A stretch of 37,202 bases of DNA, from positions 1-37,202 of the forward strand of contig JANQJC010000064.1 in assembly GCA_028281825.1 (NCBI GenBank). Reading direction: 5' to 3'. Each line of letters begins with the position of its first letter. Within the stretch, counting starts at the first letter, position 1. The notes below the pieces were generated by a model, which saw only the letters and a program-made list of their open reading frames with translations, was not told where the DNA came from and did not search any database. This DNA is from Flavobacteriales bacterium (lineage in GTDB: Bacteria > Bacteroidota > Bacteroidia > JANQJC01). A program made the position numbers and the translations under genes. Below are positions 27,202 to 36,395 of this stretch, in pieces.

Positions 27202-27510
27202 TTAATTCTCCCCAGCAAGGATAGACTCATTTACCTGCATCACTTCAAAGTAGCCTTCAGTTTTGGTGCAGGTGTCAAAAATGGCATCTTGGTTCTTTTG
27301 CAATGCTTTTATCTGGTAATATACATAAACAAGGGCAACCATCAATACTACTTGCAGGCAGGTTATTATGCCAATAAATATTGCGAGGGTTATCATGTTG
27401 CTCAGAGTTTTTTCCAGTGTTTCCACCACTTTATCAGTAGCGCTATTATAGCTAGTAACGTTAGCATGTTTTAGGTAATTCACCACCAGCAAGCATCCCT
27501 TTTGGGCCAC
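27202..27510 (-). CDS. small one-TM protein at the end of the phage cassette
   Basis: 102 aa with a GTG start; an internal ATG at 27396 is possible. One transmembrane helix (~42-68) follows an amphipathic N-terminal region and precedes a polar tail. Size and position next to two holin-like genes suggest a lysis accessory (spanin- or antiholin-like), but nothing in the sequence proves it. It lies downstream of the holin gene and inside the reach of an imperfect inverted repeat (27481-27557). Confidence 0.5.
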   Translation of the reverse strand: MAQKGCLLVVNYLKHANVTSYNSATDKVVETLEKTLSNMITLAIFIGIITCLQVVLMVALVYVYYQIKALQKNQDAIFDTCTKTEGYFEVMQVNESILAGEN

Positions 27511-27557
27511 ATCCCGTCCCTCAACCAGGATGAAAAAGGGTGCTCACAAGGTGGTGG
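27481..27557. repeat. imperfect inverted repeat at the 3' edge of the phage cassette
   Basis: The left arm 27481-27503 (CACCACCAGC...CATCCCTTTT) and right arm 27534-27557 (AAAAGGGTGCT...GGTGGTG) are complementary apart from a few mismatches and gaps, around a 30-nt loop. It sits over the start of the last small gene. It may be a hairpin controlling that gene or a degenerate mobile-element end. Confidence 0.4.
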
Positions 27558-27560
27558 TAG

Positions 27561-27941
27561 TTATTGGCCTCTTAGGTTGTCAATCTTGTCACGAATAGCA
27601 TTCCAAAGGTCAATTCCCGTTGCTTCGCTGATGTTCTCTATGTTGCTCTTAAATTCTACCAGACATATATAGCCACCCGTTATATTTACAAAAGGCAGCG
27701 TCCCGAAAACATTTTCCATTCCATGGGCCAGCAATACGGCTATCATGTAAAGTATCATTTTAGTTATTGTCTTGCCCATTGCTTTTGAGTAGATGGGCTT
27801 TTTAATCAGCTTGTCACGCCATACGGCAGTCACAACATCCGATATCAATAAGCAACCAATCAATATTAACATAGGGGCGAGGGGGGTAATAAATGCAACC
27901 AGGTAAGCTACAAATAACTCTATGAATTCAGCTTTTTTCAT
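27561..27941 (-). CDS. phage holin family protein
   Basis: 126 aa from the ATG at 27941; the longer frame overlaps the preceding gene more and adds a polar, domain-free leader. Three hydrophobic helices and the KPIYSKAMGKTITKMILYMIAVLLA segment resemble the phage_holin_4 / toxin-secretion holin family. In a complete phage it would permeabilise the inner membrane to release endolysin, but no endolysin gene is seen nearby. The ATG lies 14 nt inside the upstream gene, which suggests translational coupling. Confidence 0.72.
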   Translation of the reverse strand: MKKAEFIELFVAYLVAFITPLAPMLILIGCLLISDVVTAVWRDKLIKKPIYSKAMGKTITKMILYMIAVLLAHGMENVFGTLPFVNITGGYICLVEFKSNIENISEATGIDLWNAIRDKIDNLRGQ

Positions 27942-28209
27942 TAATTCTAACTGATTTATCGCTTGATGGTTTTTCTTCTCGTTTCTTGCCGAAAGATTTG
28001 AGTTCTGCCACTTTGTGCAAGTATTTTGGTGCAAAAACAGCGGTGAGCATTAGCACATCAAACATGATAAAGTCTGCATTAAGGCCACAGCTATTGCTTA
28101 TCACATAGTATAGGTTGAAAACCATGAAGAATATTAGCAGTAGGAAACTGTTTAGCCTGGTGCTACTTTTGCGCCCTGGTTGTTCTTCGAAAAATCCTGT
28201 CTTTTCCAT
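27928..28209 (-). CDS. two-TM holin-like phage membrane protein
   Basis: 93 aa from the ATG at 28209, 1 bp after the stop of the fibre gene. The N-terminus FFEEQPGRKSSTRLNSF is typical of small phage membrane proteins with a Ser-Ser-x-Arg-Leu motif before the first helix. Two helices (about 20-40 and 48-65) are followed by a basic, polar tail. It is likely a holin, antiholin or membrane anchor; the exact role is not known. It overlaps the next gene by 14 nt. Confidence 0.65.
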   Translation of the reverse strand: MEKTGFFEEQPGRKSSTRLNSFLLLIFFMVFNLYYVISNSCGLNADFIMFDVLMLTAVFAPKYLHKVAELKSFGKKREEKPSSDKSVRINEKS

Positions 28210-28210
28210 C

Positions 28211-30550
28211 TTAAAATGATACTTTACGGTAAACAATATTTAAGGAGATATCGCTGTCTCCGTCTGTTGGGTTGCTCATCATTGTGGTTAGAACTATTCC
28301 ATCATTTTCTACTATCTGTGTATCAGCTGCATCAAATGGAGTGATGTATGACCAGCCTTTCACTACCCTGCTTGTGTTTGAAGAAAGAAGCTGGACGTTT
28401 TGTAACCAATTAGAATTGGCATTTTCGCATTTTATTGTTAGCCCAGTGTCTGTGCCGTAGGCAGTGGTATTAAAGTTTATACTTCCTACTATGCTGATAA
28501 TATCATAATAATACCCAACACCAGGAGCAGGTAATAAAGCTTGAGGCCGAGTGTTACAAACCAGAATACTATCACTAGAGATGGTAACGGTTGTATCTTT
28601 AATAATGGAGCCTGTGAAGTTAAGAGTACCATTACCATCATTGTACAAAATACCTTCAACATCACTGTCAGGCCATTCATATCTATTGCCCCGCAAGTTG
28701 AGATATTTTATATATTCGGGTAAGGCAAATTCATATTTATTAGATTGAGCCTCATAGCCAAGAGCAACTGAACTGTCTTGAGCGTATGATATATATCCAA
28801 TAGCACTAGCAAACTTAGTGGCCAAAGCACTTCCTCCCATAGTAATACTGAAACTGTCTGCTACAGCATTATATCCTATAGCAGATGCATCATAAAAGGC
28901 GGTGGCTTTGCGGCCTAAAGCTATTGAGTTTTTCTCTGCATCTGTGCTATCTCCAATCGCAATGCTATGGTTCATATTAGTAAGTGAACTATTCGCACCA
29001 ACACCAATAGCAATGTTATTGCTGTCGTTTGACATGTATTCTCCTGCATCTGCACCAATAAGTATATTATTGATTCCATCATATAAATTGTATCCACTAG
29101 ACTCTCCAATCACAACATTGTATTCTCCAGTATTTATCATGTATCCAGTGTTGTTACCCAACAATATGTTATTATTTCCTCCTCCAGAAGTCATTAAAGG
29201 GTTGAGTAAGTTAAAGTTCTCGTCTAAAACTACTGAGCTATCTGGCTCACTTACCCCTCCAGATACTGTGCTCCAAGTAAGGTTGCTACTGCCATCTGTT
29301 GTTAGGACTTGGCCTGAAGAGCCGTTGTAAGATGGAAAGGTGTAAGATTGAAACCCATAACCAAATTCAATTGTACCAAATTTGTTGATACGGATAAAGG
29401 CAGATGGTTCGCCATCAGTACTATCATTAGCTTGCAACAATATTCTAGTATCATCAATCTGAATTGAGTTTTCAGAATAATCACTCCCCGATGATTCATT
29501 AAAAGTATGGGTCATTCCTAATCCAAATTCGCTAATATTAAAGGCATCAACTGTCATATTGTATGGTTCATATAGCTTGAAAAGGCTAGCAGAGTTTTGA
29601 CAACACTCGGCTTCGTCACCAAAGGAGGAAATGCCGAACGAATAATCTGTTTCGTCTTGGGTTGATATGTTGAAGCTAGACCTTGAGTTGATATAGAAAG
29701 TACTATCTGAGGTTATATAGATTGTTGTGTCTGTTGAAATAAAAAAATTGCTCGAATTGATATCAATATTGTTTATGGCCTTAATATCAAAATCTCCTAA
29801 TGACTGGATATCTAAAGTGCTATCGGCTACCTTTGAGGTAAAACCGTGATCATTCAGGCTTACGGGATCAGTAAAGCCTAAGAATAGCCTGCAACTGTCG
29901 GCTCCATATCCGGTGAGGTCCATGAAACCAGCAATACTATGAAATCCATAAGAGGATCTATACAAACCAGTCATAGGAACTCCCCAAATATCATTATTCA
30001 GTAATACCATTTGGGTGTCTGCTTTCATAAGGACTGAGTGACTGGCACTATCCCGCACATAACCATTATCAGATACCAAGTTTCCGTTGGGGCTGAAGTA
30101 TAGTACCTCGTTTATGTGATTCGTACTGCCTTCAATGGTATCACCCCACACGGCACTAGTTCCTGAGCCACTACTCACATCACCGGTAACCAATAACTTT
30201 TTCCATTCAGTTCCAGTGTATAATTCAAATCTGTTTGAGCTAGTATTAAATATCATCAATCCAGTAGGAGGTGAGGATATAGCATCTCTTTGAGTTTCAT
30301 CCATCTTGGAGATGAGTACACCACCATTAGTGCTGCTAACTTCAAATGCCGTTCCTGGAGTAAGGGTGTCCGCTCCGATTACAGCGAAACCACCTGATAC
30401 AAAAAGCGAATCTCTTACTTTGGTGTTACCTTTTATGTAAAGATTGTTGTTGTAGTTTCCATAAGTTTGGGCATGGTTATCATTGGTGAAAATCAGGACT
30501 ACCAATAAAATGAGTAGCCCATTTAAGCTTGTCTTTATTATTGCTTTCAT
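28211..30550 (-). CDS. secreted YadA-head-like fibre protein inside the phage cassette
   Basis: 779 aa. Residues 1-28 form a convincing Sec signal peptide (basic start, LLILLVVLIF core, NDNHAQ end), which is unusual for a virion gene. Residues ~75-120 carry the Bacteroidota surface-fibre motif (VLISKMDETQRDAISSPPTG, then FELYTGTEWKKL). Residues ~459-603 hold ~10-15-residue repeats with NSIAIG, NSIALG and SVALG cores, typical of the left-handed beta-roll in YadA/trimeric autotransporter heads. The C-terminal ~125 residues read like a phage structural or receptor-binding domain (VLTTMMSNPTDGDSDISLNIVYR). No YadA membrane anchor or T9SS sorting domain is visible. It lies 31 bp after the preceding phage gene and 1 bp before the next. 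Confidence 0.75.
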   Translation of the reverse strand: MKAIIKTSLNGLLILLVVLIFTNDNHAQTYGNYNNNLYIKGNTKVRDSLFVSGGFAVIGADTLTPGTAFEVSSTNGGVLISKMDETQRDAISSPPTGLMIFNTSSNRFELYTGTEWKKLLVTGDVSSGSGTSAVWGDTIEGSTNHINEVLYFSPNGNLVSDNGYVRDSASHSVLMKADTQMVLLNNDIWGVPMTGLYRSSYGFHSIAGFMDLTGYGADSCRLFLGFTDPVSLNDHGFTSKVADSTLDIQSLGDFDIKAINNIDINSSNFFISTDTTIYITSDSTFYINSRSSFNISTQDETDYSFGISSFGDEAECCQNSASLFKLYEPYNMTVDAFNISEFGLGMTHTFNESSGSDYSENSIQIDDTRILLQANDSTDGEPSAFIRINKFGTIEFGYGFQSYTFPSYNGSSGQVLTTDGSSNLTWSTVSGGVSEPDSSVVLDENFNLLNPLMTSGGGNNNILLGNNTGYMINTGEYNVVIGESSGYNLYDGINNILIGADAGEYMSNDSNNIAIGVGANSSLTNMNHSIAIGDSTDAEKNSIALGRKATAFYDASAIGYNAVADSFSITMGGSALATKFASAIGYISYAQDSSVALGYEAQSNKYEFALPEYIKYLNLRGNRYEWPDSDVEGILYNDGNGTLNFTGSIIKDTTVTISSDSILVCNTRPQALLPAPGVGYYYDIISIVGSINFNTTAYGTDTGLTIKCENANSNWLQNVQLLSSNTSRVVKGWSYITPFDAADTQIVENDGIVLTTMMSNPTDGDSDISLNIVYRKVSF

Positions 30551-30581
30551 TGCTGTTGTTGATTAAATGATTTGAGGGTTT

Positions 30582-31160
30582 TTAATAAGCCATTATGTTA
30601 ATCTCTATTCCTGCCACATTTTCATTGGCATGGACTTTTATTTTATTCAGTTCATCACTTGTGTCCCGCTCCCATAGGAAGTCACTTTTTTGACCATCTT
30701 CCATGAAGGCCACAATGCGAGCTTCTTTGCCAAGGTTGTGGGTAATCTCATTTTCACCTTCTGTAAGGTCAGCTTCAACTGTGAAGGTTTTCGGGACTTT
30801 GATTAAGTCAACGGGATTGGGCAAAATGTTGATTAGACTTCGGGTTTGCCAATAAAGCCCTTCTTCTGGGATGAAACCGGTAAATGCTACTGGCTCGCCT
30901 TCTTCTTCATAGATGGCTTCCCAGGCTTTGCCTTCGTAGTAAGCATATCTCTTGGCTGGGTCATTGCTTTCTGCTAAGTATTCTGCAGCAGGGTTGTAAG
31001 GCTCCATGTTGAGAGGGTCGAAATAATCGTTCAAGGCTTCATAGAGCTTTATAAAGTTGCCATCCAACTCTTCGTATGTGAGGGTGGCTCCCTTGGTGAT
31101 GAGGGTGCCATGTATGGCTTCTCTCAACACCAGGTTTTCTAGTTCAGTAAGTGCACTCAT
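30582..31160 (-). CDS. small virion-type protein
   Basis: 192 aa, starting within the stop of the upstream gene (4-bp ATGA overlap). The N-terminal half (~1-110) is helical with acidic and Tyr-rich stretches. The C-terminal ~75 residues (FTVEADLTEGENEITHNLGK, FMEDGQKSDFLWE) resemble a beta-rich domain found in phage tail-fibre or virion proteins. No catalytic motif is visible. Translational coupling to DUF6712 suggests it binds near the head-tail connector. Confidence 0.6.
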   Translation of the reverse strand: MSALTELENLVLREAIHGTLITKGATLTYEELDGNFIKLYEALNDYFDPLNMEPYNPAAEYLAESNDPAKRYAYYEGKAWEAIYEEEGEPVAFTGFIPEEGLYWQTRSLINILPNPVDLIKVPKTFTVEADLTEGENEITHNLGKEARIVAFMEDGQKSDFLWERDTSDELNKIKVHANENVAGIEINIMAY

Positions 31161-31666
31161 CCTATTGAATTGATTTTAACTGTTCCTGGATTGGTTTGAA
31201 GGCTGCACTTAAAGAGGGGATAGGCACTAGCCATCCTTTCTAAGTAAAGCAGCATTTGATTTTCGTGGTGGCGGGCACCGCTTTTAGCTTGGTTGACCAT
31301 TGAGCTCAATTGCTCATTGTCTGGCCTTTCAGAGTTTTCAAGTATCTTTTTGGTAAAGCCTGAAGGTGTTGACGTAACTCCATTGTTCACTAAGAGGCGA
31401 ACATAGGTGTAGTAAACCAACACGGCTTTAGCGCCTTTAAACTCATAGGTGTTGCCCTTGTAGGTGTATTGCCCACCGAGCAAAAGGGTTTGGTATTGAG
31501 GTAGGGCAACGTTGTCCCTGAAGTCAATGTAAAGCTGCTCGCCTAAAACGGGTTTCAGGTCAAATTCTTCAGCTTCGTCAATGTGTGGGTCAAGGTCTTT
31601 GGCGGTGTTGATGTTGGCCGTTAAAAACTTGTATTCCCCGAAATCACTTAAGGTTATCAGGCTCAT
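31157..31666 (-). CDS. DUF6712 family head-tail connector-like protein
   Basis: 169 aa, full length for the family. The opening LITLSDFGEYKFLTANINTA and HIDEAEEFDLKPVLGEQLY are hallmarks of DUF6712, found in Bacteroidota phages and prophages next to the portal gene. By position it is the connector or head-completion protein that joins the portal ring to the tail or closes the capsid. It lies 25 bp after the portal gene. No tail genes follow, so it may serve only to close the head. Confidence 0.75.
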   Translation of the reverse strand: MSLITLSDFGEYKFLTANINTAKDLDPHIDEAEEFDLKPVLGEQLYIDFRDNVALPQYQTLLLGGQYTYKGNTYEFKGAKAVLVYYTYVRLLVNNGVTSTPSGFTKKILENSERPDNEQLSSMVNQAKSGARHHENQMLLYLERMASAYPLFKCSLQTNPGTVKINSIG

Positions 31667-31691
31667 CTGTTATTAGTTTTTTTGAGGGGTT

Positions 31692-32801
31692 TTATAAATT
31701 TTGATCTATGCTGAGAGTGGCAATCTTATAGTTCTCTGACGGGTTGGCATCGGGGAACAGGCTGAATAGCCTCTGGAATTGTTCCTCGATTACCATTCTC
31801 TCGTCAGACGTTTCCTCATTGTATTGTTTGATGGCTTCCATTCTCTCGCTGTTATCGCCCAGTTGGCCAGGGATGGATTTGAAAAGCACAGGCGGCAGGC
31901 CATAATTCATGCGGATGTTCTCCTGAACGCTGCTCTCATGGTATTCATACAGCCTGTCATTGTTTTGATGGCTGAAAGGTGTGATATCTGGCACTTGCTC
32001 ATCCAATTCTACTTCTGCCCAGAAGATTTTATTGAAGTTATCGGCGCCCTGGAATTCGGTTATCTTCTCAGCAAACTCACGGCGGGCTTCATCTGTTTCA
32101 AACTTACCTTTAGTTACCAAAAGGTGAGAAGCCATAAATCCGCTGGTGATATTGCGGTATTTGAAGAGCTTGATCTGGCTATCCACTTCTACATCCTCCA
32201 ACACGGGGTCGCAAGTACTGAGTGGGTAAACCATTTCTCCTTCGCTGCTGTACCAGAGTATCTGGCCTTTGTAGTTCTCAAAGCCCCCAGCGGCTTCTAC
32301 TTGTGCGGCAATTATCTCTGGGTCAGGATTGAAAACATCTATAAAGTCAATGTCATCAACCAGAATACGTTTTTTGCGGTGCATATCCCAATTGTCATAC
32401 ACGGCTACTTTTGAGATATAGCCTTGGTCGTCAGCTATGGCTAGGCGACAATACTTAAAAGGGATGTGCTGGGCTTCTACGGGCTCTAACTTGGCATTAT
32501 AGTTGACATGAATGGCGAAGCCATTGATGTAGCTATAATCCTTTGCTACCTGCCTCAAGAGATGATTGGCGGTTTGGCCTTTGGTGTTGATGATGGCCTG
32601 AGCGAAACCTTCGTCCTCAAAGCCCTGGCCTATAATGTATTTCTTAAGGCGCTCGATACATATACTTGCAGCACCACTGCCTGCCAATATATCCAGGATG
32701 CGCTGAGGGTAAAGGTTGTCGCGGTCATAGCTTTCAATGCCCAGGCGTTTATCTACGGCATATACCTTCCGCTTTTGAATTTTATCTAAGTTGATACGCA
32801 T
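31692..32801 (-). CDS. phage portal protein
   Basis: 369 aa, shorter than most portals (400-550 aa). Typical HK97/PBSX-type features: an N-terminal RDNLYPQRILDILAGSGAA, an interior DYSYINGFAIHVNYNA strand region, a mid YYSSEGEMVYPLSTCD-like stretch, HESSVQENIRMNYGLPPVLF and a C-terminal GQLGDNSERMEAIKQYNEET followed by a helical tail. It would form the dodecameric DNA gate of the capsid. It is downstream of the capsid gene, the reverse of the usual portal-protease-capsid order, and no terminase to drive it lies nearby. A REP-like repeat separates it from the upstream HhH gene. Confidence 0.83.
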   Translation of the reverse strand: MRINLDKIQKRKVYAVDKRLGIESYDRDNLYPQRILDILAGSGAASICIERLKKYIIGQGFEDEGFAQAIINTKGQTANHLLRQVAKDYSYINGFAIHVNYNAKLEPVEAQHIPFKYCRLAIADDQGYISKVAVYDNWDMHRKKRILVDDIDFIDVFNPDPEIIAAQVEAAGGFENYKGQILWYSSEGEMVYPLSTCDPVLEDVEVDSQIKLFKYRNITSGFMASHLLVTKGKFETDEARREFAEKITEFQGADNFNKIFWAEVELDEQVPDITPFSHQNNDRLYEYHESSVQENIRMNYGLPPVLFKSIPGQLGDNSERMEAIKQYNEETSDERMVIEEQFQRLFSLFPDANPSENYKIATLSIDQNL

Positions 32802-32855
32802 TGCTTTGTGTTAAGTGTTTTGTCGTATTCGTTGTGTTTTTTGGTGCTGTCCGTA

Positions 32856-32940
32856 TCATCATTGCCAGGAGGAACGACGAAGCAATCTCCTTTTATGATT
32901 ATTGAATTTGAGATTGCCACGCTACGCTCGCAATGACGGG
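32856..32940. repeat. REP-like imperfect palindrome between two phage genes
   Basis: An element of about 85 bp with inverted ends: TCATTGCC (32859-32866) against GCAATGAC (32930-32937), and GAAGCAATCTCC against GAGATTGCCAC. The CATTGCGAGCG / GCAATGACG theme is the widespread intergenic repeat seen in many bacterial chromosomes. Such repeats are normally chromosomal; its presence inside the cassette implies long residence there. A short ORF that reads through it is discounted. Confidence 0.65.
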
Positions 32941-32945
32941 TAGGG

Positions 32946-33500
32946 TTACTCACCAGCCGACAACCTCTCAGCGCTGGCTTTGCCAATACCTTTGATGGCG
33001 GTCAATTCTTCTACGCTCATGGTTTTGGCTTGCTGTGGGGTAATGCCCGCTTTGGCTAAGGCAGCCAGAACTTTTGCCGGAAGGCTCTCGCTCTTGGGTT
33101 CTTCTGTTGGTAGCGCATGGTCTTCGGGTTGTGGGTTCTGGCTGTCAAAGTCATCAAGCACCTGTTGTGGGTTTTCAAATAGTTTGGCATTATCGCGGCT
33201 GCGCTCTATCATTTGCATTACCACCTTATCAGTAAGGGTTGAATTGGTGTAATGCGTATGATTAAAGTAGAATAACGCGTTTTTGTTTTTAAGCTCGTAT
33301 TGTGTCATTTCGGGTTGTTTTTGGTTCAGTAATAATTCCAGTTCCATCACTGCTTCTTCGGCGCACAGGCTGCATCCCCTTTTGCGGGGGCGTTTGCCAG
33401 TAGTGAGATGATACACTTTACCCACTTCCTCAATCAAGGCTCGGCTATCGCCGGGGCGATTGCGCCATTTTTGGATAATATCTTTAACAAGTGCTTGCAT
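32946..33500 (-). CDS. helix-hairpin-helix protein of the phage cassette
   Basis: 184 aa. Residues ~1-60 are helical with one CxxC pair (Cys43 and Cys46, GCSLCAEEA), which could bind a metal if paired across subunits. Residues ~100-140 are acidic and Pro-rich (linker). Residues ~163-183 are a helix-hairpin-helix (EELTAIKGIGKASAERL), a sequence-nonspecific DNA-binding motif. It probably binds DNA at the capsid vertex or during packaging, a plausible partial substitute for missing packaging proteins (inference). The start is ATG. Confidence 0.6.
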   Translation of the reverse strand: MQALVKDIIQKWRNRPGDSRALIEEVGKVYHLTTGKRPRKRGCSLCAEEAVMELELLLNQKQPEMTQYELKNKNALFYFNHTHYTNSTLTDKVVMQMIERSRDNAKLFENPQQVLDDFDSQNPQPEDHALPTEEPKSESLPAKVLAALAKAGITPQQAKTMSVEELTAIKGIGKASAERLSAGE

Positions 33501-33569
33501 AGGTTCAAGAGGAAGAAGGAAAGGGCTTTTGAGGGCCCTATTCCTTCAGGTGGTTGGGTTGAGAAAGGT

Positions 33570-34151
33570 TTACGGTACTATTACATCGATGATGTTAGTT
33601 ACTGTGGTTGTAAAGTCAGTGTCAAACAAGGTATGTGGTATGGTACCCGGGCGACTAGTTTCACTGTTGCGCAACAAGAGATTATAAGCGCCCATGGTGT
33701 CACCATCGTTCAATATTCTTTCTAACTCCTGCAACTCAAGGCCACTATCATTTCCATACAATTCAAATGCTGCGTTGCCACTAGCTCCCTTATGGTTGTT
33801 TTGCACAATGGCCACCACTTTTGACTGACCCAACTTCATGATTTGCTCTTTAATGGATGGGTCATTGTTGAATACTTTAAACCTTACTTCATGGTCGAAG
33901 CTATCTACGTAGCGGCCTTTCACCAATGCTACGCGAGGTTCTACACTGTCGTTTTGACCTTCAAAGGCATATCCTTGTCCTGTACCAAGTGTATAGCCAT
34001 CAATGATTAATGGGTTGTTGACATCATAAGAGATGGTACCTGATTGCCAATCATCAAAGTTCATGAGAATAAGGCGGTCGTTTGCCCCACCAGTGGGTGG
34101 GTTTGCGCAGTCATAAACAATTCCTGCGTCTATTTTTCCACAAGCTGACAT
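33570..34151 (-). CDS. conserved phage structural protein (unknown role)
   Basis: 193 aa, full-length ATG start. The sequence is of a virion type seen beside capsid genes in Bacteroidota phages: CANPPTGGANDRLILMNFDDW near the start, FEGQNDSVEPRVALVKGRYVDSFDHEVRF in the middle and a late YGNDSGLELQELERILNDGDTMGAY. Candidates are a tail-tube-like, decoration or head-tail protein; sequence alone does not decide. It lies 24 bp downstream of the capsid gene. Confidence 0.62.
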   Translation of the reverse strand: MSACGKIDAGIVYDCANPPTGGANDRLILMNFDDWQSGTISYDVNNPLIIDGYTLGTGQGYAFEGQNDSVEPRVALVKGRYVDSFDHEVRFKVFNNDPSIKEQIMKLGQSKVVAIVQNNHKGASGNAAFELYGNDSGLELQELERILNDGDTMGAYNLLLRNSETSRPGTIPHTLFDTDFTTTVTNIIDVIVP

Positions 34152-34175
34152 AATTTTTCTGTGTTTTTAGGTTGA

Positions 34176-35264
34176 TTAATAAGCGATTTGTATCATGTAG
34201 TCTTCGATAACTTTTGCATCGATGTGCATGCCGATATCGGTGTAGAAGGATTTGTCTCTCCTGTCGTAGAACCAATCGGTAGCCATGCCTGCAAAGTCAC
34301 CTGCTTCTTCCAAGCCTACAGCCAGGTTTTCCTTAGTGGTAAGTACTGCCCTGTGTGGCAAGTAATAAGTGGTTCCATTGTCTTGATAGGTCCTGATTAG
34401 GTTATCAAAAAGGTTGACACCTACTACAGGGATGTCTTCAAACATCAAGGCTTTGTAGCCACCTTCAATGCGTTGGAAAGATGAATCCAGTTGTTCACTT
34501 CTTAATTCCTTAGCATACTGGTCAGCAACTGATTGCGTAGTGATGAATACTAAGTCATCCCTTTGCCTTAGCCTGTAATCAGCATTGTACTTCAATTGCT
34601 CCAGGGTGTTGATAGCAATTTTGTTGGTTGTATCGGTACCATCAAATTCTTGAAGGGCGTAACTGGCTGCTGTGTTTTTACTATCCAATGTGCCTACCAA
34701 TCTTGTGGCATCAGCCGTAGCTATGGCTACCAATTGCTTCCAGAAACCATCAATTGGGTTCCAGTAGTCCAAGTCGATACCTGGTGTCATTACACCTGTT
34801 GCGTCTGAGTGGTCTGCTGCTGTATCGCCGAACCAAATCAAGCGCCATACCATTTCCTGTACGGCTTCTGATACGCGGTCCTCTAACACGATTGCATAGT
34901 CAGTACCTTCCAAGTCGCCCACCTGCACACCGTTTTTCATTGAGTAACGGAAAAGGCTGTTGTTCAGGTCTTTCCAGCACTGCTTCAAGCGGTCTTCCAC
35001 AAACATTGGGTCCCAGAACTTTTCTGATAAAGCGATTGTTTCGTCACTTACCGAAGGTTCACAGCTTTCAGGGTCACTTTTGCGACCAATCAAACCCAGC
35101 TTGCCTACATAAGCTATTTGTTGTTTTGTTTTGATACCAGCATGAACACTGTGGAACAACTGGAACTCTGGTCTTTGGAAAACCTTTTCCCATACGGCCT
35201 CCCTAATGTCTTTCACTTCTTCACCGTTAAAGGTGAGTTGTGAGGGGTCAAATACTCCTGCCAT
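34176..35264 (-). CDS. HK97-like major capsid protein
   Basis: 362 aa. An HK97-fold capsid is supported by an N-terminal helical arm (~1-50), a central spine and A-domain (DDLVFITTQSVADQY, GGYKALMFEDIPVVGVNLFDNL) and YLPHRAVLTTKENLAVGLEE leading to a C-terminal strand with YDRRDKSFYTDIGMHIDAKVIEDY. It lies 6 bp downstream of the protease gene, the usual protease-capsid pairing. It is intact, with no internal stop. Whether it assembles with the gene products nearby or a separate phage is unknown. Confidence 0.82.
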   Translation of the reverse strand: MAGVFDPSQLTFNGEEVKDIREAVWEKVFQRPEFQLFHSVHAGIKTKQQIAYVGKLGLIGRKSDPESCEPSVSDETIALSEKFWDPMFVEDRLKQCWKDLNNSLFRYSMKNGVQVGDLEGTDYAIVLEDRVSEAVQEMVWRLIWFGDTAADHSDATGVMTPGIDLDYWNPIDGFWKQLVAIATADATRLVGTLDSKNTAASYALQEFDGTDTTNKIAINTLEQLKYNADYRLRQRDDLVFITTQSVADQYAKELRSEQLDSSFQRIEGGYKALMFEDIPVVGVNLFDNLIRTYQDNGTTYYLPHRAVLTTKENLAVGLEEAGDFAGMATDWFYDRRDKSFYTDIGMHIDAKVIEDYMIQIAY

Positions 35265-35270
35265 TGTTTA

Positions 35271-36395
35271 TTATTTGTTTAGTTTAAGTTTCTTTTCTTC
35301 TAGCTCGGCGCGCCTTGCAGCCGTTTTGTCTCTTAGTGAGCCATCATTGCCTTGCTTGCCTTTATTGAAGGTTTTGCTGTCTTTGGGCGGCACGTAACCA
35401 CTCTTGATGTTTTTAGCCACGAAAGCCAACTTGCTGTTGATTTCAGCGATTTCCTTCTTAAAGGCTGCCACTTCAGCACGTAGCTTGCGGTTTTGGGCTT
35501 TTAGCTCTTCAGTGCCTGCTGTGGCCGGGGTAACTTCGGTCACTTCGCCGCCTTCGGCAACAGTAAAGAGGGTGCCGCCCTGCAACTCATAGTCGCCAGC
35601 GGCTAGTGGTTCACCAGCTTCATCGGTTACTACCTGCCCAACTGCAATCTCATCATCGCTGTTGGTGCTCACGGGGCTGCCATCGGCTAGGGTATAATCC
35701 ATGTTGAGGATACCCGTGCGGCCTGCCTTGATGCTCAATTTTTGGAGGATAGAGTTGAGCACTCCGTTGGTCCTCCTGATTTCTGTTTTGATTTCTGACA
35801 TATCATTAGGGTTTGAATTACTTGGTGTGAAAGCCGCTATCGGCATGCGGTGTTGATAGTTGCGGGCAGCGAAAGTGTCCACCACTTGTGTGATGAAGCC
35901 CAGTTTCTTTGCTTCAGCTGATGTGAAGCCTGTTTCTTGCGCCATGAATTGGCTTATCTTTTGCCTGTTGCCACGGGTTTTGCTCACGTAGAAGTTGAGT
36001 ATGCGTTCTTCTGCCTTCTTGAGTTCGTTGGCATATTTTTGCACATCTTTGGCATCGCCATTAATCATGCCCCAGGGGTTGTGGATGAAAAACTCGCTGT
36101 TTTCCAGCATTTTCCTTTCGCTGCCCGCAAGCGCGACGATGGTGGCTATGCTGGCGCACAAGCCTTCAATAATGGTTTCAATCTTTTTGCCTGAGTTCAC
36201 CAACACGTCGTGGATGGCAAAACCCTCGCTCACATCGCCGCCACGGCTGTTGATGTGTACTATTAGTTTCTCAGTATTGCCTGCGGCTTTTAGCTGTTCC
36301 TGAACGGATTTGAGGTTCACGATGCCCCACTCACTGGGGTTGTTTACCTGCTCATTGTAAATGTCTCCGTAAATGTAAATGTGTGCTTCTGTCAT
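35271..36395 (-). CDS. ClpP-type prohead protease fused to a scaffold-like tail
   Basis: 374 aa. Residues ~1-175 are an S14/ClpP-like fold: HINSRGGDVSEG substrate-groove loop, Ser82 in GLCASIATIVALAG and His105 in EFFIHNPWG. I could not assign the third catalytic residue (the Asp position reads Thr in ETGFTSAEA). Residues ~200-374 are a separate region: a short helical start (MSEIKTEIRRT), a beta-rich stretch with TLADGSPVSTN and DYELQGGTLFTVAEGG, then a charged coiled coil (~285-318) and a basic end, resembling a scaffold. An internal ATG at 35801 (residue 199) could produce the scaffold alone. It would cleave capsid and scaffold during head maturation. First gene of the cassette. Confidence 0.8.
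   Translation of the reverse strand: MTEAHIYIYGDIYNEQVNNPSEWGIVNLKSVQEQLKAAGNTEKLIVHINSRGGDVSEGFAIHDVLVNSGKKIETIIEGLCASIATIVALAGSERKMLENSEFFIHNPWGMINGDAKDVQKYANELKKAEERILNFYVSKTRGNRQKISQFMAQETGFTSAEAKKLGFITQVVDTFAARNYQHRMPIAAFTPSNSNPNDMSEIKTEIRRTNGVLNSILQKLSIKAGRTGILNMDYTLADGSPVSTNSDDEIAVGQVVTDEAGEPLAAGDYELQGGTLFTVAEGGEVTEVTPATAGTEELKAQNRKLRAEVAAFKKEIAEINSKLAFVAKNIKSGYVPPKDSKTFNKGKQGNDGSLRDKTAARRAELEEKKLKLNK

Follow-up and report, generated by a model that had tools for sequence, protein, structure and literature searches.

Introduction

The accepted view is that the fibres of tailed phages fold and are assembled in the cytoplasm, and to our knowledge no route has been described in which they are instead exported, stored in the periplasm, and released by lysis. 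The locus analyzed here lies in a 37,202-nucleotide stretch of DNA from a Flavobacteriales bacterium (contig JANQJC010000064.1, hereafter the window), and its closest described relatives are temperate phages of Bacteroidota with this portal type: BS-TP3, phi46:1, and BX788P2. As in the window, their genes run in the order protease, major capsid protein (MCP), (gp193), portal, DUF6712, slot protein, and holin. The complete Bacteroides phage BS-TP3 has the window gene order and a portal that is 37% identical, and Cellulophaga phi46:1 matches the order more loosely. The slot proteins of these phages lack a Sec leader, whereas the window fibre has both a leader and a host-type shaft. In a survey of variable binding proteins from phages, absent signal peptides were counted toward phage origin (PMC6199706).

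A second kind of relative is found among exported fibres encoded on Bacteroidota chromosomes, in which YadA_head is combined with an S74 chaperone or Collar domain (L039 genes 4-6, L040 gene 8). These have a Sec leader and shaft repeats, as the window fibre does, but they lie outside phage operons and have S74 or Collar at the end where the window fibre carries a phage jelly-roll. The fold of this last domain is shared, at a TM score of about 0.5, with phage cement or decoration proteins (KHP40, 7dou; GP4, 8h89; Pam1, 7eel), although these are stand-alone capsid proteins with no clear sequence relation to it. Finally, clusters related to the window's operon resemble gene transfer agents (GTAs) of the RcGTA type in standing at a fixed site without integrase or replication genes and, in the window's own genome, in being dispersed over three contigs. 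The GTAs named in one paper belong mostly to Alphaproteobacteria and Brachyspira, with Faecalibacterium as a new addition (PMC12946183); in the literature searched, none was found in Bacteroidota.

Results

The fibre gene is part of a single late operon

One late operon runs along the minus strand from 36395 down to 27202. It opens with a ClpP-type head maturation protease (35271..36395; phrog_94, E 2e-53) and a leaderless MCP (34176..35264), which matched phrog_38780 (E 6e-46), gave weaker major-head matches, and is colinear with the BS-TP3 capsid gene. These are followed by the virion structural protein gp193 (33570..34151; phrog_21217, E 2e-17; phrog_19979, E 5e-8), a 184-aa protein with a helix-hairpin-helix (HHH) motif (32946..33500; PF14520, E 4e-5, below the cut-off), the portal protein (31692..32801; phrog_11226, E 4.6e-90, and its place in the portal tree), and a DUF6712 protein in the head-tail connector position (31157..31666; PF20459, E 1.6e-26). 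Next come gp192 (30582..31160) and the fibre. A 102-aa membrane protein, an ORF with no family match (27928..28236), overlaps the fibre stop codon, and it is succeeded by a holin (27561..28034; PF05105, 30.2 bits against a cut-off of 22.2; phrog_199) and by the last cassette gene, a 102-aa single-TM protein (27202..27510; ORF list and family scan). The position assigned to the fibre in the preliminary description, between virion-type and holin-like genes, was thus borne out, with portal, DUF6712, and gp192 upstream and the holin downstream. No terminase or tail genes were present within the window, and no long direct repeats that could be att sites were seen flanking the cassette. The BS-TP3 record annotates gp1, directly before the head protease, as a SusD-family outer-membrane protein (L045 5-1264).

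The fibre begins with a predicted Sec leader

The fibre ORF (28211..30550) has the coordinates given in the preliminary description, which named no strand, and lies on the minus strand; it encodes 779 aa from an ATG at 30550, with an in-frame stop five codons upstream, and the full-length protein is unique in its own genome. Residues 1-27 (30470..30550) read as a textbook Bacteroidota Sec leader, MKAIIKTSLNGLLILLVVLIFTNDNHA followed by Q, with the n-region MKAIIKTSLN, the h-region LLILLVVLIF (mean hydropathy of 4.0 for the best nine residues), and a c-region ending in NHA. The predicted cut falls between NHA and QT, and this Ala-Gln site is typical of Bacteroidota. The leader had a value of 6.9 in the home-made score used for all leader calls, in the fibre and its relatives alike. 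None of 4000 shuffles of the first 60 residues reached this value, and all 342 conserved virion proteins taken from the related viral contigs (families of the protease, gp193, HHH protein, portal, DUF6712, and gp192) scored below even 5.5. This agrees with the convincing signal peptide claimed at the outset, and we consider the case for a Sec (type I) leader strong but not definitive. A lipoprotein reading was discarded, as there is no Cys at +1 and no lipobox; the only Cys residues are at 220, 316, 317, 665, and 708.

A true start codon downstream of the signal peptide, which had been named as one finding that would overturn this reading, was rejected. Before residue 98 the only other in-frame starts are TTG16 and ATG83, and a leaderless start is unlikely because the former falls within the hydrophobic core of the leader and the latter would cut the conserved module at residues 58-119. 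No orthologue of the whole fibre was found in which conservation of its leader could be followed.

The fibre body joins a host-type shaft to a phage-type domain

The N- and C-terminal parts were compared separately, as the preliminary description had proposed, and they led to different relatives: the N-module and shaft to exported proteins of the own genome, the jelly-roll to tailed-phage proteins. The N-module (residues 58-119; 30194..30379) matched exported own-genome proteins as well as phage fibres; residues 70-136 matched phrog_1325 (E 7.7e-8), and residues 453-570 the tail spike family phrog_4636 (E 1.1e-6). For the shaft (residues 446-603; 28742..29215), own-genome proteins with leaders and YadA_head/S74 domains showed 37-46% local identity to parts of the region. 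Every own-genome relative of N-module or shaft that was scored had a leader by the home-made score; three of these relatives are tandem neighbors, and the single relative scanned has both YadA_head and S74 above cut-off. The earlier term YadA-head-like holds for the shaft as a resemblance, since one own-genome relative passes the YadA_head cut-off, but the fibre's own matches stay below the cut-offs (Pfam YadA_head on 554-565, E 0.0049 and 17.7 bits against 25; NCBIfam YadA on 516-603, E 0.0022).

The last 136 residues (644-779; 28214..28621) form the phage-type jelly-roll, with relatives in 53 IMG/VR contigs in an alignment-based scan. Relatives were obtained with alignment queries; direct sequence scans of genome and viral contigs with the portal, the whole fibre, or the jelly-roll were unsuccessful, and tblastn against isolated phages with the fibre, the jelly-roll, gp192, and the fibre of contig L173 returned nothing useful. 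AlphaFold, given 25 sequences, produced a beta-rich jelly-roll with a pLDDT of 88.6. The structures nearest to this model were uncultured tailed-phage proteins (TM 0.90), and the match to trimeric phage cement proteins was weaker (TM about 0.5). A single-sequence model of residues 430-779 (pLDDT 34) was set aside. T9SS cargo was also rejected as an identity, as no C-terminal T9SS sorting domain was found with Pfam or NCBIfam.

The jelly-roll and gp192 hold the two halves of one phage protein

In seven viral contigs (L139, L145, L149, L153, L154, L163, and L164), the gene directly after DUF6712 encodes a single protein of about 255 aa. Its residues 1-120 correspond to the N-half of gp192 (residues 1-119), with 34-41% identity and best E values of 4e-26 and 1e-27, and its residues 125-255 correspond to the fibre's jelly-roll, at best with 33% identity and an E value of 7e-15. 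In the window these halves are held by gp192 and the fibre, and the leader and the host-type shaft sit between them. The portal tree places the same seven contigs as the nearest relatives of the window, with modest support (81/83). Since the C-terminal domain of the fibre is the missing half of the neighboring virion protein, the mosaic was most likely made in place, inside the operon. The fusion of a host surface-fibre N-terminus to a phage-like C-terminus, suspected in the preliminary description, was substantiated by this split, and the comparisons support a true mosaic of leader, host-type shaft, and phage-type C-terminal domain.

Leaders recur on proteins in the same slot

Of 38 viral contigs whose sequence extends 2.5 kb or more beyond DUF6712, five (L173, L178, L181, L186, and L208) have a leader-bearing slot protein of at least 230 aa that is not spanin-like, and the truncated contig L176 has one in addition; the short leader-bearing genes by the holin are spanin-like and were left out of this count. 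Two genomes, G362 and G404, have a leader-bearing fibre in the slot as well. The bodies are diverse and clearly alike only in L173 and L178. They include collagen-like and tailspike-like proteins, non-homologous to the window fibre: that of L173 is a collagen-like tail fibre (phrog_6320, E 6.5e-27), and the one in G362 has a relative in gp49, a tail protein of phage LKA1. A leader also precedes the same jelly-roll in contigs L104, L108, L114, L117, and L106, which carry terminase, portal, or capsid genes; their close relatives L123, L125, and L126 have the jelly-roll without a leader. In genome G051, a leader-bearing host-type fibre ends in this jelly-roll. Most slot relatives are leaderless, including those of phi46:1, BS-TP3, and BX788P2.

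These data bear on the other finding named as overturning the earlier reading, homologues in complete phages with the same leader, and they go part of the way toward it. The leader-bearing slot does recur in viral contigs, with bodies of other descent, and a leader also precedes the jelly-roll in phage contigs, but the search of isolated phages found no complete one whose fibre bears such a leader. The idea that the leader marks a host gene recruited into one cassette was not supported in that form, as leader-bearing fibres occupy the same slot elsewhere. The export leader seems less an accident than a trait that keeps reappearing in this lineage, and from the combination of different bodies, one slot, and one leader type we argue that the leader itself would be selected.

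The portal of L208 nests inside the host clade of genus g82, and this contig may be chromosomal. The portals of four IMG/VR contigs labelled viral (L208, L213, L194, and L217) fall inside this chromosomal clade, and these contigs are probably misfiled host sequence. Further large leader-bearing proteins occur among the structural genes of the phage contigs L108 (2199-4232) and L104 (7560-9830), and one of them is a GDSL esterase with a weak laminin-G-like match. Four MCPs (L156 7682, L175 7479, L178 7441, and L186 6764) are extended at the N-terminus by about 48-58 aa that the window MCP lacks; the added stretch has two hydrophobic segments, of which the first is leader-like, and a later start is possible (ATG48 in L175). 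The extension evolves fast: L175 and L178 differ in it at 6 synonymous and 19 non-synonymous codons, and in L178 and L186 it occurs together with a leader-bearing slot protein.

Discussion

Envelope export is the likely fate of the fibre, because the leader appears real, the shaft is host-type, and the C-terminal domain is phage-type. We consider it somewhat probable that this phage-derived mosaic is exported through Sec to the periplasm when the late operon is expressed, and that it acts at the envelope or is freed at lysis. An ancestral virion-operon protein of about 255 aa would have been split, its N-half, probably the particle anchor, passing into gp192, and its jelly-roll tip being joined to a leader and a shaft like those of the bacterium's own exported fibres. 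Upon induction, the fibre would be exported and its leader cut. Lacking any outer-membrane or lipid anchor and any T9SS signal, it would then collect in the periplasm until the adjacent holin triggered lysis and freed it. With its phage tip, it would most likely work at the envelope, where it may occupy the receptor of its own particle, blocking superinfection or keeping progeny off debris; another putative role is that it joins particles only after lysis.

An ordinary virion fibre, assembled onto particles mostly in the cytoplasm, whose weak or ineffective leader came from a host fibre gene through recombination, would account for the place in a virion operon beside gp192 and for the phage tip domain, and the virion proteins of phi46:1 detected by mass spectrometry have no leader. 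We nevertheless hold this unlikely, given the strength of the leader and the repeated presence of leaders on unrelated proteins at this position; of the marks of a virion fibre, operon location and a phage-type tip were found, but leaderlessness was not. Could the gene instead be a passenger (moron) of a decaying prophage, encoding a host adhesin unrelated to particles? The genome has several related exported fibres, and the G+C content of the fibre (0.38-0.39) is nearer to that of the host flank (0.41) than to that of the capsid genes (0.43-0.49). However, the fibre ends in the missing half of the neighboring virion protein, so that its gene was most likely built in place, it shows no outer-membrane anchor, T9SS domain, or lipobox, and similar slots exist in viral contigs; we regard this origin as rather improbable. 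The leader and YadA-head-like repeats might also recall a trimeric autotransporter adhesin (T5c, YadA type) located in a prophage by chance, but with no Pfam or NCBIfam match to the YadA membrane-anchor barrel and a phage jelly-roll as C-terminus, this identity was rejected as very improbable.

If the recurrent leaders are what they seem, some phages or phage-derived particles send a binding protein to the envelope, and such a protein would offer a test of superinfection control or of post-lysis attachment. A wider reading, which we offer tentatively and hold doubtful, is that some Bacteroidota tailed-phage lineages have a slot for Sec-exported, periplasm-stocked, lysis-freed fibres, and that the operon belongs to a domesticated, vertically inherited, dispersed GTA-like system of Bacteroidota.

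Genomic setting

The surroundings of the fibre suggest that Bacteroidota may harbor a gene transfer agent. Phage-type genes lie at three loci on three contigs of the window's genome (G000), each with host genes beside it: both terminase subunits, small and large, with one more operon gene (G000:C6; L041 8428-13639), tail-operon genes, one of them split by a frame change (G000:C71; L234 286-5073), and the head-fibre-lysis module of the window (27202-36395). Taken in the order terminase, tail, and head-fibre-lysis, these modules follow the single cluster of genus g82. In that genus, portals with 71% or more identity to the G202 portal occur in 29 of 61 genomes, and in nearly every genome for which the cluster ends were read, the same host genes border the cluster on at least one side. 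Reading of the gene lists revealed no integrase or replication genes in the window cassette or the g82 clusters. In f14, protease, MCP, and portal had dN/dS values of 0.016-0.09, like neighboring host genes. Inheritance at a shared site was assessed in g82 and purifying selection in f14, the family and order of the window being represented by one genome in the collection. That the operon's relatives keep one chromosomal position throughout a genus, with no integrase in the gene lists, suggests a GTA-like element, and the related clusters look like vertical inheritance of a working particle in GTA fashion.

In the g82 contigs L029, L030, L033, L061, and L267-L286, the cluster is of tailed-phage type, about 25 kb long, and occupies the same chromosomal site in many species. 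The frame change in L234 (1278-2847) divides a homologue of a tail-operon protein of about 685 aa into 356 and 155 codons, through decay, an assembly error, or a frameshift. In L041 (10357-12849), an 830-aa protein between a terminase gene and the next operon gene is predicted from its leader to be exported, which would make it the second such protein encoded within the dispersed phage operon. The single-contig genome G056 has broken portal and tape-measure genes (L028 8253-9382; L059 15910-16787), which are intact in a sister species and may reflect sequencing error. Acyltransferase-like genes, called from N-terminal sequence only, stand repeatedly beside the fibre or lysis genes (L027, L029, L031, L034, L267, L279, and L281), an arrangement that we liken to surface-modifying prophages.
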